The notes under the pieces were generated by a model. That model ran no database searches. It was given only the letters and a program-made list of their open reading frames with translations, and had not been told where the DNA came from. Source: Erysipelotrichaceae bacterium (GTDB lineage Bacteria; Bacillota_I; Bacilli_A; Erysipelotrichales; Erysipelotrichaceae). From it: a stretch of 64,000 bases of DNA. Below are positions 27,823 through 62,744 of the stretch, piece by piece; the first letter of the stretch is position 1; every line of letters starts with the position of its first letter. The position numbers were made by a program, and so were the translations under genes. The stretch is taken from NCBI GenBank assembly GCA_017512885.1, contig JAFWEP010000004.1, forward strand, positions 62,001 to 126,000, written 5' to 3'.

Positions 27823-28689
27823 TTATTCGCAGAATACCTTGTCCAGTCTTTCCCGCAGGAAGTCACAGGAATACTTCAGATTCTCTTCCCATCTGTCCGG
27901 ATAGTCACACCAGAACTCTCCGTTGAACATCCTCACACCCAGTTCCTTCAGGACTTCCAGGTTGGAGATATATTCCGTAATACCTGTTCCCCAGGGAACA
28001 CTGCGGTCAGTCTTCGGCTTCGTCTCCTTTAAGTGACAGGCCAGGATATGACCGGTACCGGTACGTAAGTCATCATTGACGCTCTTCTCATAACCGAAGT
28101 CATGACGGGCACCGGCCAGATTGCCGATATCCGGATACATGCCCAGATAAGGACTGTTGACCATATTCACATAGGTCATGCCTTTCTCGACGGTATCGAT
28201 GAAGTCGCGGTCCATCATCGTCTCAAAGCCCATCAGGATGCCTCTTCTGGCAGCCATCAGTGCAGCGATCTTCAGGTTTTTGATGAATTCCGCTCTCGTC
28301 TCTTCGTTGGCTTCTTCGTAGTAGCAGTCATAACCGGCCAGCTGGATGATGCGGATGCCGATATCTCCGGCAAAGTCGATGGCTTTCTCCATGATCTCCA
28401 TGGCCTTTTCATGTTTCTCCTTGCCCAGGGAACCTAAGGAATACTTGCGCTGTGCACTGAAGCACATCGTATAGATCGGAGTGCCGGTCTTCTTCATCAG
28501 AGCGACCAGTTCATCCTTCTGTTCCTTGGTCCAATAGAGACGGGAGATCTTCTCATCAGTCTCATCGATGGAGATCTCGACCCAGTCGAAACCGGCCTTC
28601 TTGCAGGCTGTCAGTTTCTCTTCCCAGGAGAGATCCTTCGGCATGGATTTCTCATACATGCCTAAGAGATAGGGTCTAGTTCTGTCCAT
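27823..28689 (-). CDS. ulaE: L-ribulose-5-phosphate 3-epimerase (UlaE/SgbU family)
   Basis: The protein has 288 residues forming an AP-endonuclease-2-type TIM barrel. The family motif [14 protein letters not shown] lies at about residues 74-87. Metal ligands are suggested by [29 protein letters not shown] and FNGEFW. UlaE interconverts L-xylulose-5-phosphate and L-ribulose-5-phosphate in ascorbate and L-xylulose use. The gene overlaps the 3' end of the 4-epimerase gene by 14 bp, so the two sequential epimerases are co-translated and together convert L-xylulose-5-phosphate to D-xylulose-5-phosphate. UlaD is absent from the window. Confidence 0.9.
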
Positions 28690-29371
28690 AGTAAGCTCCC
28701 GGACCGTGTTTGCGCAGATAGTGCTTGTTCAGAAGCTCCTGCTGCATGCGCGGAACTTCCGGGTTGATCACTTTGGAGAGGAAAGCCATCTTGGCGACTT
28801 CTTCCAGAACGACCGCATTGTGTACCGCATTGAAGGCATCCGTGCCCCAGGTGAAGGGACCGTGGCTCCTGACCAGGACACCGGGGACATCATCGGGATC
28901 GATGCCTCTCTGCAGGAATTCCTTGACGACGACGTTGCCAGTCTCTTTTTCATATTCACCGGCGATCTCTTCCGGCGTCATGTAACGGGTGCAGGGGATA
29001 TCGCCATAGAAGTAATCCCCCTGGGTAGTGCCTAAAGCAGGGATGTCCTTGCCGGACTGCGCCCAGGCGGCCGCAAAGGTGCTGTGGGTATGGACGACAC
29101 CGCCGATATGCGGGAAAGAGCGATAGAAGACCAGATGGGTCGGGGTATCGCTGCTGGGCTTGTAGTGGCCTTCCACGACATTACCTTCCAGATCGACGAC
29201 GACCATGTCTTCCGGTTTCATGTCATCGTATTCCACTCCGGAAGGTTTGATGACGAAGAGTCCGGATTCCCGGTCGATGGCACTGACATTGCCCCAGGTG
29301 AAGGTGATCAGACCGTATTTCGGCAGCAGCAGATTGGCTTCGCAGACCTTTTTCTTCAGTTCTTCCAACAT
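28676..29371 (-). CDS. L-ribulose-5-phosphate 4-epimerase (UlaF/AraD family)
   Basis: The protein has 231 residues from MLEELKKKV; a start 17 codons upstream is in the promoter region, and CAGGAG supports 29371. The family features are [14 protein letters not shown], the phosphate and metal region [11 protein letters not shown] (Asp in place of the aldolase Glu), the zinc pair [11 protein letters not shown], and [10 protein letters not shown]. The Asp and the C-terminal [10 protein letters not shown] are typical of AraD/UlaF rather than aldolases. It interconverts L-ribulose-5-phosphate and D-xylulose-5-phosphate. With a GH51 arabinofuranosidase gene nearby it could serve L-arabinose, but no araA or araB is visible. 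Confidence 0.9.
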
Positions 29372-29473
29372 AATAATTTTCTCCTGTATTGTTTCTGTAT
29401 CCTCAGTATAACCGATTTTCAAATGGGATTCCGTGCATTCGGGGCAGAATCAGAATGTAACTATTTTCATATA

Positions 29474-29502
29474 TTGACTTGCATTTTCATAAGTTGTAAG
29501 AT
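29474..29502 (+). promoter_or_regulatory. Promoter of the T-box/TrpX-like transcript
   Basis: TTGACT (29474-29479), a 17-bp spacer and TAAGAT (29497-29502) place the start near 29509, directly before the T-box leader. Confidence 0.7.
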
Positions 29503-29508
29503 GAAGCC

Positions 29509-29760
29509 AACACATAGATCCGGAACATGCACAGCGTCCGCTTCGGCTACAGAGAGGTCACGTTTGCTGAGAGTGACTGAAAGAAGTGCTGTGGAATTCC
29601 CCGGGGAGTGGCTGCCCGAACTTCAGTAAGGTATGCCGGGAAGACTGCCGTTAACAGTCTGGACCGTGTTGGCGGTCTGTAAGGTCTCTTCAGTGATGAA
29701 GGGATGAAGTAAGGTGGTAACACGATGAAGCCGGTCGTCCTTATAGGGGCGGCTTTTTAT
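29509..29760 (+). ncRNA. T-box riboswitch leader, possible Phe specifier
   Basis: The leader has an AGAGAG element near 29560, a distal stem GTCAC/GTGAC, a T-box-like sequence AAGGTGGTAACACG (29711-29724) and a G/C-rich terminator hairpin followed by TTTTTAT ending at 29760. In stem I, CACAGC pairs with GCTGTG and the adjacent loop reads GAA then TTC, so the specifier may be UUC (Phe). The 5' side lacks a clear AGUA, so the specifier is uncertain. The leader would sense uncharged tRNA and switch on the binding-protein gene downstream. Confidence 0.8.
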
Positions 29761-29777
29761 GTTTAGGGAGAAAGAAA

Positions 29778-30776
29778 ATGAAAAAGATCCTGGCTGTCAT
29801 CCTCACTGTCTTACTCTGTTCCTGCTCCTCACCTTCCTCGACTGCTCCGCAGTCTTCTGCGGAAGACGGCAGGGTGACCATCGCTGTTATCCAGCTGCTG
29901 ACCCACGGCTCCCTCGATGAAGACTATCAGGGCTTCCTGGACGGTCTCAAAGAAGCCGGTTACGAAGAAGGAAAGAACCTTGAGATCATCTACCAGAACC
30001 CGGAAGGTGACCAATCCAACCTGGCGACCATGGCCGATGCGGTCGTAGCCAAGGATCCCGACCTGATCGTCGCGATCGCGACCCCTCCGGCCCAGGCTGT
30101 CCAGCAGGCGCTGGAGAGCGCCGGCAAGTCCATTCCGGTCCTGGGCACCGCCATCACTTCCTATACCGAAACAGGTCTGGCGGAAACGGATGAAAGACCG
30201 GGGCTGGGCATCTCCGGCGTCTCTGACAACTGCCCGATGGATCTGCAGCTGATGCTGGCGCAGCAGATCGTTCCCGAATTAAAGACCCTGGGTATCCTCT
30301 ACACCTCTTCGGAAGCCAATTCTCAGATCCAGGCGGAACAGATGGAAGAAGTCTGTGCCGCTGCCGGTGTACAGACTCTGGTCAAGACCGTTTCCGACAA
30401 GACGATGATCGATGATACGATGCAGTCCTTCATCGGCAATGTGGAAGCCCTCTATATCCCTACCGACAACAACATCGCTTCCGCCATGGGCTCGGTCGAT
30501 ATCGTTGCTACCGAGAATAAGCTGCCGGTCGTTGTCGGTGTCTCCGCCATGTGTGCCGACGGCGGTCTCGTCGCCCTGGGTGTCGACTACTATGTCTTAG
30601 GCAAAGTCACCGCCGAGATGGCCGTCGAAGTCCTGAACGGAAAGGATGTCAGTGAGATGCCGATCCGTTACGGTTCCTCCGGCACCATCTACTACAACCC
30701 CCGCACGGCCGAGAATCTCGGCATCACCCTCCCCGACAATATCCTCTCTGACGGGATCGATGTAACGGCTGAATAG
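29778..30776 (+). CDS. TrpX-like ABC transporter substrate-binding lipoprotein, no adjacent permease
   Basis: The protein has 332 residues. The signal peptide ends at the lipobox VLLCSC, followed by a Ser/Pro linker and an ABC_sub_bind (PF04392-type) fold: TIAVIQLLTHGSLDEDYQGF, VAIATPPAQAV, LGILYTSSEANS, LYIPTDNNIASAM and GVDYYVLGK. This family binds aromatic amino acids in TrpXYZ systems. A T-box leader just upstream supports an amino-acid ligand. Unlike the locus at 60-62.7 kb, no permease or ATPase follows, and a terminator lies directly after it. It may therefore share TrpY and TrpZ encoded there. The ribosome site is AGGGAG. Confidence 0.9.
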   Translation: MKKILAVILTVLLCSCSSPSSTAPQSSAEDGRVTIAVIQLLTHGSLDEDYQGFLDGLKEAGYEEGKNLEIIYQNPEGDQSNLATMADAVVAKDPDLIVAIATPPAQAVQQALESAGKSIPVLGTAITSYTETGLAETDERPGLGISGVSDNCPMDLQLMLAQQIVPELKTLGILYTSSEANSQIQAEQMEEVCAAAGVQTLVKTVSDKTMIDDTMQSFIGNVEALYIPTDNNIASAMGSVDIVATENKLPVVVGVSAMCADGGLVALGVDYYVLGKVTAEMAVEVLNGKDVSEMPIRYGSSGTIYYNPRTAENLGITLPDNILSDGIDVTAE

Positions 30777-30882: not shown

Positions 30883-31698
30883 ATGAACAATGTCATCATT
30901 ACCGGCAGCGCCCGGGGCTTAGGCTATGAGATGGTCAAAGTCTTCCGCAGGAGCGGTTTCTCAGTCGTACTCAGCGACATCCACGAGGAGAAACTGCAGG
31001 AAGCTCAGGAATCATTAGCGAAAGAGACAGGAAACGGCAAGGTCCTGGCAAAGACCTGCAACGTCACCTCTCTGGAAGAGCTGGAAGCGCTCTGGAATTA
31101 CGGAACAGAGGAACTCGGTGAGATCGACCTCTGGATCAACAATGCCGGCGTCAATCAGCCGATGGTCCCTTTATGGGAACTGAAGAAGGAAGAGATCGAT
31201 CTGCTGATCGATATCGACCTCAGAGGCGCCATGTACGGCTGCAAGACGGCCATCAGCCACATGAAAGAACAGGGGCACGGTCTCGTCTACTGCATCGAAG
31301 GCTTCGGTGCCGATGATGCCACTCAGTTAGGCTTAACGGCTTACGGCAGTTCCAAGAAAGGCGTACAGTACATGGTCCGCGGTCTGGCCAAGGAGCTGAG
31401 CAAAACGAACACGCCGGTACAGGTCGGAAGGCTGAATCCGGGCATCATGATCACCAACTTCATCACGCATCCTTTGGGAAAAGACGGAGCCATGGAGCTC
31501 TCGGAAAGCACCAAAAAGGTCTACAACATCCTCGGCGACTATCCGGATGTCGTGGCCGATTTCCTGGTCAAGGGCATGATCGCCAATATCACGAAGAAGA
31601 AGCAGGATGACTATGTAGCCTGGCTGACCAAAGGGAAGGCCGCCTGGCGCTTCCTGACCGCCGGTTTCAATAAGAGAGACTTCTTTAAGAACAGTTAA
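30883..31698 (+). CDS. Short-chain dehydrogenase/reductase
   Basis: The protein has 271 residues with a Rossmann fold: the cofactor motif TGSARGLG at residues 7-14, Asp at the end of strand 2 (VVLSDIHEE), NNAG at about residues 86-89, and the catalytic YGSSK. Asp after strand 2 suggests NAD preference. The C-terminal extension of about 60 residues is longer than in minimal SDRs, and the catalytic Ser position reads YCIEGFG, where the usual Ser is not evident. That may reduce activity or place it in an atypical subgroup. No substrate can be assigned; the ribosome site is weak and the gene appears monocistronic. Confidence 0.82.
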   Translation: MNNVIITGSARGLGYEMVKVFRRSGFSVVLSDIHEEKLQEAQESLAKETGNGKVLAKTCNVTSLEELEALWNYGTEELGEIDLWINNAGVNQPMVPLWELKKEEIDLLIDIDLRGAMYGCKTAISHMKEQGHGLVYCIEGFGADDATQLGLTAYGSSKKGVQYMVRGLAKELSKTNTPVQVGRLNPGIMITNFITHPLGKDGAMELSESTKKVYNILGDYPDVVADFLVKGMIANITKKKQDDYVAWLTKGKAAWRFLTAGFNKRDFFKNS

Positions 31699-59692: not shown

Positions 59693-59735
59693 GTATCCTA
59701 TTGACATTTCTTACGTTTGAGAGAAAATGGAATCA

Positions 59736-59994
59736 ATAAACCAATGACAGAGCGGAGTACCTGATACGAACGTTCCAAGAGAGTCCCGGAGGGTGGAAAG
59801 GGACAGCGGGGAGATCAGCGAATGGGCTCTGGAGGGCGGACCGAATCAAGTAGGCTCCGACGGGACTTCCCATCCGTTACCAAGCGGGAGGCGCATGATG
59901 GTGCGCTCAGCGAGTGGATACCGTAAGGTATCAATTTGGGTGGTATCGCAGAAGAATACAGCTTCTGTCCCATGTGGACAGAAGCTTTTTATTT
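59736..59994 (+). ncRNA. T-box riboswitch leader, Trp (UGG) specifier
   Basis: Stem I is clear. GAGC pairs with GCTC and CTGAT with ATCAG, enclosing a specifier loop with GGAGTAC on the 5' side (AGUA motif) and CGAATGG on the 3' side, giving GAA-UGG. AGAGAG follows at about 59779. The T-box sequence TTGGGTGGTATCGC is at 59936-59949. The terminator pairs AGCTTCTGTCC with GGACAGAAGCT and ends in TTTTATTT. UGG means tryptophan control of the downstream transporter genes. Confidence 0.92.
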
Positions 59995-60048: not shown

Positions 60049-61062
60049 ATGAAAACGATCAGAAAGTTCCTCAGCATCACCGCAGTCCTTCTTCTTACTC
60101 TCACGATGTTCGGCTGTTCCTCAGCCTCTTCTTCCGCTGCTCCCTCTGAGAGCAGCGAAGAAACGGTCCTGACCATCGCCATCGTCAAACAGCTCGATCA
60201 TCCTTCGCTCGATGAGATCGCCAACGCCGCTGCGGCGAAGTTGGATGCCCTGGCAGCCGAAAAGAAGATCGTCATCCACTACGAGATCTATTCCGGACAG
60301 AACGATCCCTCGACCCTCCAGCAGATCGGCGAACAGCTGGTCTCCGAAGAGGTCGATGCGATCATCCCGATCGCGACCATGGCTGCGCAGGTCATGACTA
60401 ACGCCGCTGCCGAAAAAAAGATCCCGGTCATCTTCGGTGCTGTCTCCGATCCGGAAGGGGCTGACCTCACCGGTATCGACTATGTCAGCGGGACCTCCGA
60501 TGCCCTCAATACCAACTTCATCATGGACATGATCCTCAAGGAAGATCCGGATACGGCCAAGGTCGGCTTACTGTACTCCACCTCCGAGATCAACTCCGAG
60601 AAACCGATCGCCGAAGCCAAAGCCTTCCTCGATTCCCACAACATCCCCTACGTCGAAGCGACCGGTACCACCGCTGATGAAGTACTGACGGCCGCCAGTG
60701 TGCTGATCTCCGAAGAGGTCGATGCGATCTTCACCCCCACCGACAACGTCATCATGGACAGTGAACTGGCGCTGGCTCCGCTGTTTATCGCAGCCGGCAT
60801 CAAGCACTATGCCGGAGCCGACTCCTTCGTCCGCAACGGCGCCTATGCCACCTGCGGCGTCAACTACACCGATCTCGGCGCTTATTCGGCGCAGCTGGCG
60901 GTCACTGCAGCCACTGCCGGCATGGAAGGCCTCGAAGACTACTACCTGATGGAAGGCGGCATCATCACCGTCAATACCGAGACGGCCCAGGCCCTCTCCG
61001 CAGACTACTCCGTCTTCAAAGATATGGGTACCTTAGTCGAAGTCATCACCACGGAAGAATAA
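60049..61062 (+). CDS. trpX: TrpX-like tryptophan ABC transporter substrate-binding lipoprotein
   Basis: The protein has 337 residues from MKTIRKFLSI (AAAGGAG at 5 nt; the open upstream frame runs through the T-box). The signal peptide ends at the lipobox MFGCS, then a Ser/Ala linker and an ABC_sub_bind fold: AIVKQLDHPSLDEIANAA, IPIATMAAQVMTNAA, GAVSDPEGA, GLLYSTSEINSE, IFTPTDNVIMDSEL and CGVNYTDLG. It is paralogous to the orphan binding protein at 29778-30776. The Trp T-box upstream and permease and ATPase downstream support tryptophan uptake. Confidence 0.92.
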   Translation: MKTIRKFLSITAVLLLTLTMFGCSSASSSAAPSESSEETVLTIAIVKQLDHPSLDEIANAAAAKLDALAAEKKIVIHYEIYSGQNDPSTLQQIGEQLVSEEVDAIIPIATMAAQVMTNAAAEKKIPVIFGAVSDPEGADLTGIDYVSGTSDALNTNFIMDMILKEDPDTAKVGLLYSTSEINSEKPIAEAKAFLDSHNIPYVEATGTTADEVLTAASVLISEEVDAIFTPTDNVIMDSELALAPLFIAAGIKHYAGADSFVRNGAYATCGVNYTDLGAYSAQLAVTAATAGMEGLEDYYLMEGGIITVNTETAQALSADYSVFKDMGTLVEVITTEE

Positions 61063-61068
61063 TTCGCT

Positions 61069-61953
61069 ATGCTGTATATATTGGAGACTGCTCTGCGGCT
61101 GGGACTCTTCTATGCCCCCATCCCGCTGGCCCTGTTCCTCAGCTACCGTATATTGAATATCGCCGATCTGACGACAGACGGCTCTTTCGTCCTGGGCATG
61201 GCAGTCTCCGTCAGCATCGCTGCTTTGGGGCATCCCTTTTTAGGGATGCTTCTGGGCATGGCTGCCGGCGCTCTTGCCGGCAGTGTCACCGCGCTCTTAC
61301 AGACCAGGGGCGGCGTCCCTTCGATCTTAGCCGGCATCATCACCAATACCGGTCTTTACACCGTCAACCTGGCAGTCATGGGCTTCTCCTCCAACAAGTC
61401 CCTCCTGAAACAGGAGACGGTCTTCTCCCTGCTGAAGAAGCTCATTCCGGGCGAACACTACGAGATCCTGATCGGACTCTTCCTGATCGCCCTGCTCTGT
61501 CTCTTCCTGCGTTTCTTCCTCTCTACAAGGCTTGGGCTCTCGCTGCGGGCGACCGGCGACAATATCGCCATGATCCGCTCCTCTTCGGTCGATCCTGACC
61601 GGATGATCCTGATCGGCCTCTGTATCTCCAATTCCTTTACCGCATTAGCCGGCGCATTGGTAGCCCAGATGCAGCGTTCCGCCGACATCAATGCCGGCAG
61701 CGGCATCGTCACCGTCGGTCTGGCCTGCCTCATCATCGGGGAGACCCTGCTTGGGAAACGCTCCCTCACCCGCAACATCCTCGCCGCCGTCACCGGTTCC
61801 CTCTTCTACCGTCTCTTGTACGCCCTGATCCTGAAGACCCGGGTCGTACCGGTCGAATGTCTGCGTCTGCTGACGGCTGTGATCGTCGCCGCCGCGATCG
61901 TCATCCCCTACCTGCAGGAGCAGGCTGCCGTAAGGAGGAGAAGAGAATGCTGA
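61069..61953 (+). CDS. trpY: TrpY-like ABC transporter permease
   Basis: The protein has 294 residues and about eight to nine helices of the BPD_transp_2 class. Motifs include YRILNIADLTTDGSFVLG, TRGGVPSILAGIITNTGLY and LRATGDNIAMIRSSSVDPD as the coupling loop. It starts 6 nt after trpX and overlaps trpZ by 7 nt (ATGCTGA). Confidence 0.92.
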   Translation: MLYILETALRLGLFYAPIPLALFLSYRILNIADLTTDGSFVLGMAVSVSIAALGHPFLGMLLGMAAGALAGSVTALLQTRGGVPSILAGIITNTGLYTVNLAVMGFSSNKSLLKQETVFSLLKKLIPGEHYEILIGLFLIALLCLFLRFFLSTRLGLSLRATGDNIAMIRSSSVDPDRMILIGLCISNSFTALAGALVAQMQRSADINAGSGIVTVGLACLIIGETLLGKRSLTRNILAAVTGSLFYRLLYALILKTRVVPVECLRLLTAVIVAAAIVIPYLQEQAAVRRRREC

Positions 61954-62744
61954 AGTGTGAAGGATTAAAGATCTCCTTTGACAAAGGAACAGCCCACGAA
62001 AAGACCGTCCTGCAGGATCTCTCCTTTGAACTGCAGGAAGGCGACTTCGTCACGGTCATCGGCGAGAACGGCTCCGGCAAGTCGACTCTCCTGAACTGTC
62101 TCTCCGGCACCTATCTGACCGACAGCGGAAAGATCCTTCTCGATAACGAAGACGTCACTCTGCTGCCGGAATACAAACGGGCCCGGAAGATCGGCCGGCT
62201 CTTCCAGGATCCCCTGCGCGGTACTGCTCCGCATCTGACCGTGGCCGAGAACCTGGCTCTGGCCTACCTGCGGGCAGCCGGGCATTTCCACCCCTTCTCG
62301 CGCATCTCCGCCAAGGACCGGCAGTTCTTCGCGGAACGCTTAAAAGCCCTGGATATGGGCCTGGAAACGCGTCTGGATGACAAAGTCGGACAATTGTCCG
62401 GCGGACAGCGGCAGGCGATGACCTTGCTGATGGCAACATTGGTGCCGCCGAAGCTGTTATTGCTGGATGAACATACAGCAGCTCTCGATCCGCAGGCCGA
62501 AGAGAAGGTCAGCGACCTGACTAGGAAGATCGTGGAGGAACACCATATCACCTGTCTGATGGTCACCCATGACATGCAGCGGGCGCTGGATACCGGCAAC
62601 CGCACCTTCATGATGGCCGGAGGAAAGATCATCTTCGAACTGAACGAAGAAGAAAAAAAGACCCTGTCAGTACAGGATCTGCTGGTACGCTTCCGGGAAG
62701 CGTCCGGCAGGAACCTGGCCAGTGACCGGATCTTATTGGGGTAG
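61947..62744 (+). CDS. trpZ: TrpZ-like ABC transporter ATP-binding protein
   Basis: The protein has 265 residues from MLKCEGLKIS (AAGGAGGAG at 8 nt). Walker A is GENGSGKST, signature LSGGQRQAMTLLMA, Walker B LLLDEHTAALD with the catalytic His of EH replacing the usual EP, and switch His in MVTHDMQ. The DEHTAALDP form is typical of this branch. It completes the trpXYZ importer. An intrinsic terminator overlaps its stop codon. Confidence 0.92.
   Translation: MLKCEGLKISFDKGTAHEKTVLQDLSFELQEGDFVTVIGENGSGKSTLLNCLSGTYLTDSGKILLDNEDVTLLPEYKRARKIGRLFQDPLRGTAPHLTVAENLALAYLRAAGHFHPFSRISAKDRQFFAERLKALDMGLETRLDDKVGQLSGGQRQAMTLLMATLVPPKLLLLDEHTAALDPQAEEKVSDLTRKIVEEHHITCLMVTHDMQRALDTGNRTFMMAGGKIIFELNEEEKKTLSVQDLLVRFREASGRNLASDRILLG

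Follow-up and report, generated by a model that had tools for sequence, protein, structure and literature searches.

A Stand-Alone Binding Lipoprotein Under a Phenylalanine T-Box, Predicted to Share the Core of a Tyrosine Importer in an Erysipelotrichaceae Bacterium

Results

The Orphan Locus

The window, the whole stretch of 64,000 nucleotides that was analysed, lies on contig C35 of a genome of 2.09 Mb in 50 contigs (G000), whose nearest named relatives are Erysipelotrichaceae genomes derived from metagenomes. A single-gene unit on the forward strand of the window contains the following features:

29474..29502, + strand, promoter-like sequence of sigma-70 type, TTGACT-17-TAAGAT (sequence match)
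29506..29745, + strand, T-box leader RF00230, full-length (model positions 1-219, 84.3 bits)
29597..29599, + strand, specifier codon UUC (Phe) of the leader (covariance alignment column)
29712..29724, + strand, T-box/antiterminator motif AGGUGGUAACACG, which pairs with the tRNA acceptor end (covariance alignment)
29733..29754, + strand, intrinsic terminator overlapping the 3' side of the antiterminator (terminator search and folding)
29778..30776, + strand, orphan binding lipoprotein of family PF04392, 332 aa, predicted to be Phe-specific (Pfam profile)
30540..30542, + strand, Val255 codon of the orphan, equivalent to Glu263 of CD0873 (alignment; PMC6816091)
30790..30822, + strand, terminator-like hairpin ending the unit (terminator search)

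The leader was matched to RF00230 with E-values of 5.8e-19 in a search of 451 bases and 6.3e-19 in a genome-wide search. Its score is below the Rfam gathering score of 93 bits, which is why a default Rfam search omits it and an E-value threshold was used to recover it; the match nevertheless covers the full length of the model and is followed by a terminator, as expected of a member of this family. On folding, the terminator stretch gave -12.6 kcal/mol, compared with -6.4 kcal/mol for the antiterminator stretch. The encoded protein scores 237.2 bits against PF04392 (gathering score 25.9) and has the type I binding-protein fold. Its AlphaFold2 model (pLDDT 88, pTM 0.81) retrieved CD0873 (Z 40.1), VC_1101 (39.2) and SP1069 (38.7) in a structure search, with the next other protein at 22.0.

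No permease or ATPase gene adjoins the orphan; downstream, the terminator-like site is followed by a same-strand gene for a short-chain dehydrogenase. This agrees with the original prediction of a binding protein having a T-box and terminator of its own and no transporter core. The flanking genes, a class II aldolase/adducin-type gene (28676-29422) and the short-chain dehydrogenase (30883-31698), are unrelated to amino acid uptake.

Specifier Codons and the trpXYZ Locus

A complete trpXYZ locus is situated around 30 kb from the orphan in the same window:

59735..59975, + strand, trpXYZ T-box leader RF00230 (104.6 bits), specifier UGG at 59823-59825
60049..61062, + strand, divergent trpX with 28% identity to the orphan
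61069..61953, + strand, trpY permease
61947..62744, + strand, trpZ ATPase

The orphan had been proposed to carry a UUC specifier and the trpXYZ leader a UGG, and covariance-model alignment of both leaders returned exactly these codons, with the orphan's specifier column reading GAA-UUC-C and no assignment of UGG to it. Both readings can be taken as right because this register gave the cognate codon in every one of the genome's seven synthetase T-boxes: UUC for pheST, UAC for tyrS, GUC for valS, AUC for ileS, UGC for cysS and ACC for thrS by alignment register, and UGG for trpS by eye. The genome has thirteen T-boxes altogether (L001-L013), ahead of synthetase and transporter genes, and those of other transporter genes include specifiers for His (CAC, L001), Arg (CGU, L002) and Met (AUG, L003).

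The suggestion that the orphan is TrpX-like was not supported as regards its specificity. The orphan scores 305.7 bits against the NCBIfam TrpX equivalog NF041285, below its cut-off of 390, and the residue in its binding pocket fits phenylalanine. The window's own trpX reaches merely 149.3 bits against the same cut-off; despite a clear UGG T-box it is unusually divergent, with a branch length of 2.89.

A Third System on Contig C42

Three PF04392 proteins are encoded in the genome, every one of them downstream of a T-box. The third belongs to a complete operon on contig C42, in which a UAC (Tyr) T-box is followed by a binding protein, a permease and an ATPase, and whose promoter has both hexamers identical to those of the orphan unit (TTGACT, TAAGAT). 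The binding protein of this operon is 68–69% identical to the orphan, against the 28% seen for the window's TrpX, and its permease is 40% identical to TrpY. The tetranucleotide composition of the C42 stretch is as close to that of the window as pieces within the window are to one another, and C42 is therefore unlikely to be a contaminant. The genes flanking the operon share no common order with those around the relatives' operons, with only DegV-like and ABC matches found. Besides the C42 permease and TrpY, the genome encodes 12 further PF02653 permeases.

The Pocket Residue

Glu263 of the C. difficile protein CD0873 forms a bond to the hydroxyl of tyrosine; the same position is Ala in the Phe-binding VC_1101 and the Trp-binding SP1069 (PMC6816091). 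When binding proteins were grouped by the specifier of their T-box, the aligned position was Glu in all 18 UAC proteins, Ala in all 11 UGG proteins and non-acidic in 11 of 14 UUC proteins, as Val (4), Cys (5) or Trp (2). The orphan has Val255 here, as do Phe-T-box proteins of its genus, and thus lacks the acidic residue of the Tyr-specific CD0873 type, which its C42 paralogue has as Glu. Specifier and pocket therefore agree for the orphan on phenylalanine as the predicted ligand. The three acidic exceptions among UUC proteins (G108 Glu, G097 Glu and G219 Asp, the last a less certain reading) are all distant, at 36–42% identity.

Both pockets could be read in 12 pairs, tandem or split; 11 of these combine Glu with a non-acidic residue, and the exception is G108. 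Only seven alignment columns separate Phe from Tyr proteins cleanly, and they include the Glu263 position, which the crystal structure had named beforehand. The difference in pocket residue between UUC and UAC proteins gives a Fisher p of 2.8e-6 when relatedness is ignored; the phylogenetically independent Phe/Tyr contrasts number five, of which three agree and two tie, so that a sign test cannot reach significance. A rule for Trp binding derived from SP1069 (Tyr279 to Gln) was rejected for these proteins, since all UGG proteins retain Tyr and carry Ala at the Glu263 position.

Tandem Binding Proteins in Relatives

Two binding proteins arranged head to tail and followed by one permease and one ATPase were found in 11 genomes of five genera (G018, G068 and G096, of the window's genus, and G057, G090, G048, G245, G239, G241, G242 and G108). 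The gap between the two binding-protein genes is occupied by a second T-box, and one UUC and one UAC T-box are present in 10 of the 11, the first leader of G239 lying off the contig. The Tyr unit comes first in the window's genus and the Phe unit first in the other genera. In those second leaders that were inspected, promoter-like hexamers lie upstream, as expected if transcription is to reach the inner T-box without first running through the outer one. The permeases of these operons are 65–73% identical to the C42 permease, except in G108 (50%). As relatives hold the Phe/Tyr pair beside one core, the window genome is, by gene content, the split form of this arrangement, with the predicted Phe protein alone on C35 and the predicted Tyr protein with the core on C42.

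History of the Two Types

The orphan's sister in the tree is the C42 Tyr protein, and TrpX proteins form one separate group. The AU test, applied to the full alignment, rejected a common origin for the Phe-type proteins as a whole (p-AU 1.2e-13), as it did for the middle and C-terminal portions of the alignment; the stretch of 100 columns at the N-terminal end does not discriminate. Either the Phe/Tyr split took place three times or more, or gene conversion has made older pairs partly uniform. The leaders of the orphan and C42 units are only 58% identical and are no closer to each other than to the leaders of relatives. They therefore give no support to a duplication of gene and leader together, and gene conversion between old paralogues may have taken place.

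It is about an even question whether duplicated aromatic amino acid binding proteins have repeatedly split into Phe and Tyr types across several Erysipelotrichaceae genera, with the specifier (UUC or UAC) and the pocket (loss or retention of Glu) changing in step each time and a single permease and ATPase still being shared. If so, the substrate choice of the importer would be set by whichever tRNA is uncharged.

Supply of Phenylalanine and Tyrosine

Neither prephenate dehydratase nor prephenate dehydrogenase had a match in the window genome, whereas both were matched in 14 of 14 control genomes. These are the terminal enzymes of Phe and Tyr biosynthesis, and the bacterium must therefore probably import both amino acids. 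A stand-alone short chorismate mutase is encoded on contig C31.

Discussion

Read from sequence, the leader with its specifier, promoter and terminator, together with the Tyr operon, the tandems of relatives, the pocket substitution and the missing enzymes, point to a single-gene unit for phenylalanine starvation. We infer from them that the unit responds to tRNA, that its lipoprotein binds phenylalanine and that it uses the core of the C42 Tyr transporter instead of that of trpXYZ, a reading to which we give a probability of roughly 0.7. Uncharged tRNA-Phe (anticodon GAA) would pair with the UUC specifier and the T-box motif and stabilise the antiterminator, allowing the polymerase to read through to the lipoprotein gene, and the lipoprotein would load phenylalanine onto the C42 permease and ATPase. 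Production of a separate Phe-catching protein appears, in this gut bacterium, to be limited to times of phenylalanine shortage, and the membrane pump with which that protein works is probably the one belonging to the tyrosine importer encoded elsewhere in the genome.

Sharing of another system's core by the orphan, in the manner of LivJ, is suggested by the one-core tandem operons of five genera. The partner core is nonetheless the weakest step of the proposal, given the 12 other PF02653 permeases and the position of the C42 core behind a Tyr T-box. Shortage of phenylalanine alone would leave that core uninduced, and the model therefore needs basal or Tyr-linked expression of the core; the tandem operons show the same imbalance, with the core following the second T-box only, and so it may be tolerated.

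The original prediction also held that one core may accept several binding proteins, each induced by starvation for a different one of the aromatic amino acids, and the tandem Phe/Tyr T-box operons of relatives speak for this part of it. The choice of trpYZ as that core was not supported, because the orphan's close paralogue belongs to the C42 Tyr operon. An alternative TrpX plugging into trpYZ would share its Pfam family and contig with trpX, 30 kb apart; yet the orphan's greater identity to the Tyr-system protein, the company that its close homologues keep in relatives (permeases 65–73% identical to that of C42) and the pocket Ala and separate grouping of TrpX proteins make this highly improbable. 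The sister relationship between the orphan and the C42 Tyr protein would also suit a second Tyr-type protein, binding tyrosine or both tyrosine and phenylalanine, whose T-box has drifted to UUC, and G108 and G097 do pair a UUC T-box with pocket Glu. The orphan, however, has Val at the ligand position for the Tyr hydroxyl, like the Phe-T-box proteins of its genus, and every readable pair but that of G108 sets Glu against a non-acidic residue, so that this reading is unlikely. Least credible of all, and very improbable in itself, is a stranded remnant with no working partner, or a sensor or adhesin in place of a transport protein. The lack of adjoining core genes would be explained, and the related CD0873 is described as an adhesin too (PMC6816091), but the reading frame is intact, the unit has a promoter, a T-box and a terminator, the pocket is conserved, and a partner core is present in the genome.

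Several known systems resemble the orphan in part. TrpXYZ of Streptococcus suis (PMC9382623) likewise combines a PF04392 protein with an antiterminating T-box and induction by shortage of a single aromatic amino acid, although the orphan has UUC in place of UGG, stands alone and finds its nearest paralogue in a Tyr system. CD0873, a tyrosine-binding lipoprotein, is the closest solved structure (PDB 6hni; 35% identity; PMC6816091); the orphan differs in having Val255 for Glu263, and the CD0873 paper makes no mention of a T-box. Its Discussion raises the idea of binding proteins working with reciprocal permeases (PMC6816091). VC_1101 of Vibrio cholerae (PDB 3lkv), whose crystal holds Phe (PMC6816091), has a small non-acidic pocket residue as the orphan does, albeit Ala instead of Val, and the two proteins are distant. 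In E. coli, LivJ and LivK are alternative binding proteins with separate livJ and livK promoters that serve one membrane core, LivHMGF, and both genes are under leucine-responsive control by Lrp (PMC7373191), whereas here each binding protein has a codon-specific T-box of its own.

Shared cores are thus already known from LivJ/LivK, and it is the separate T-box for each binding protein that appears to be new. Prediction of transporter substrates from T-boxes has been described, as has a Phe T-box in the B. cereus group that was apparently derived from a Tyr one (PMC2494555), and contiguous T-boxes are described within one leader (PMC12452182). No account of an importer whose two binding proteins are under separate T-boxes with different specifiers was found in the literature covered, which did not include the two main older surveys, nor did searches of papers turn up binding proteins with tandem T-boxes or with shared permeases. 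The locus would offer a concrete case of an ABC importer whose substrate choice is made at the level of binding-protein expression through separate tRNA sensors. A readable code also emerges, in which the ligand of a transporter protein is predicted independently by the three bases of an RNA specifier and by one residue of the pocket, which helps in annotating the many PF04392 proteins now named TrpX.

Other arrangements of these genes occur in further genomes. In G033 (L096, 4193-6174), tandem PF04392 genes, one with Phe and the other with Glu in the pocket, have no detectable T-box, and such a pair can therefore exist without T-box regulation. Two close tandem binding proteins in G067 (L089, 4404-6571) both have pocket Glu and no T-box match directly upstream, with a T-box on the opposite strand further upstream of them. 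In G119 (L122, 3688-4596), an extra PF04392 gene with pocket Val follows a complete Trp-T-box operon of binding protein, permease and ATPase.
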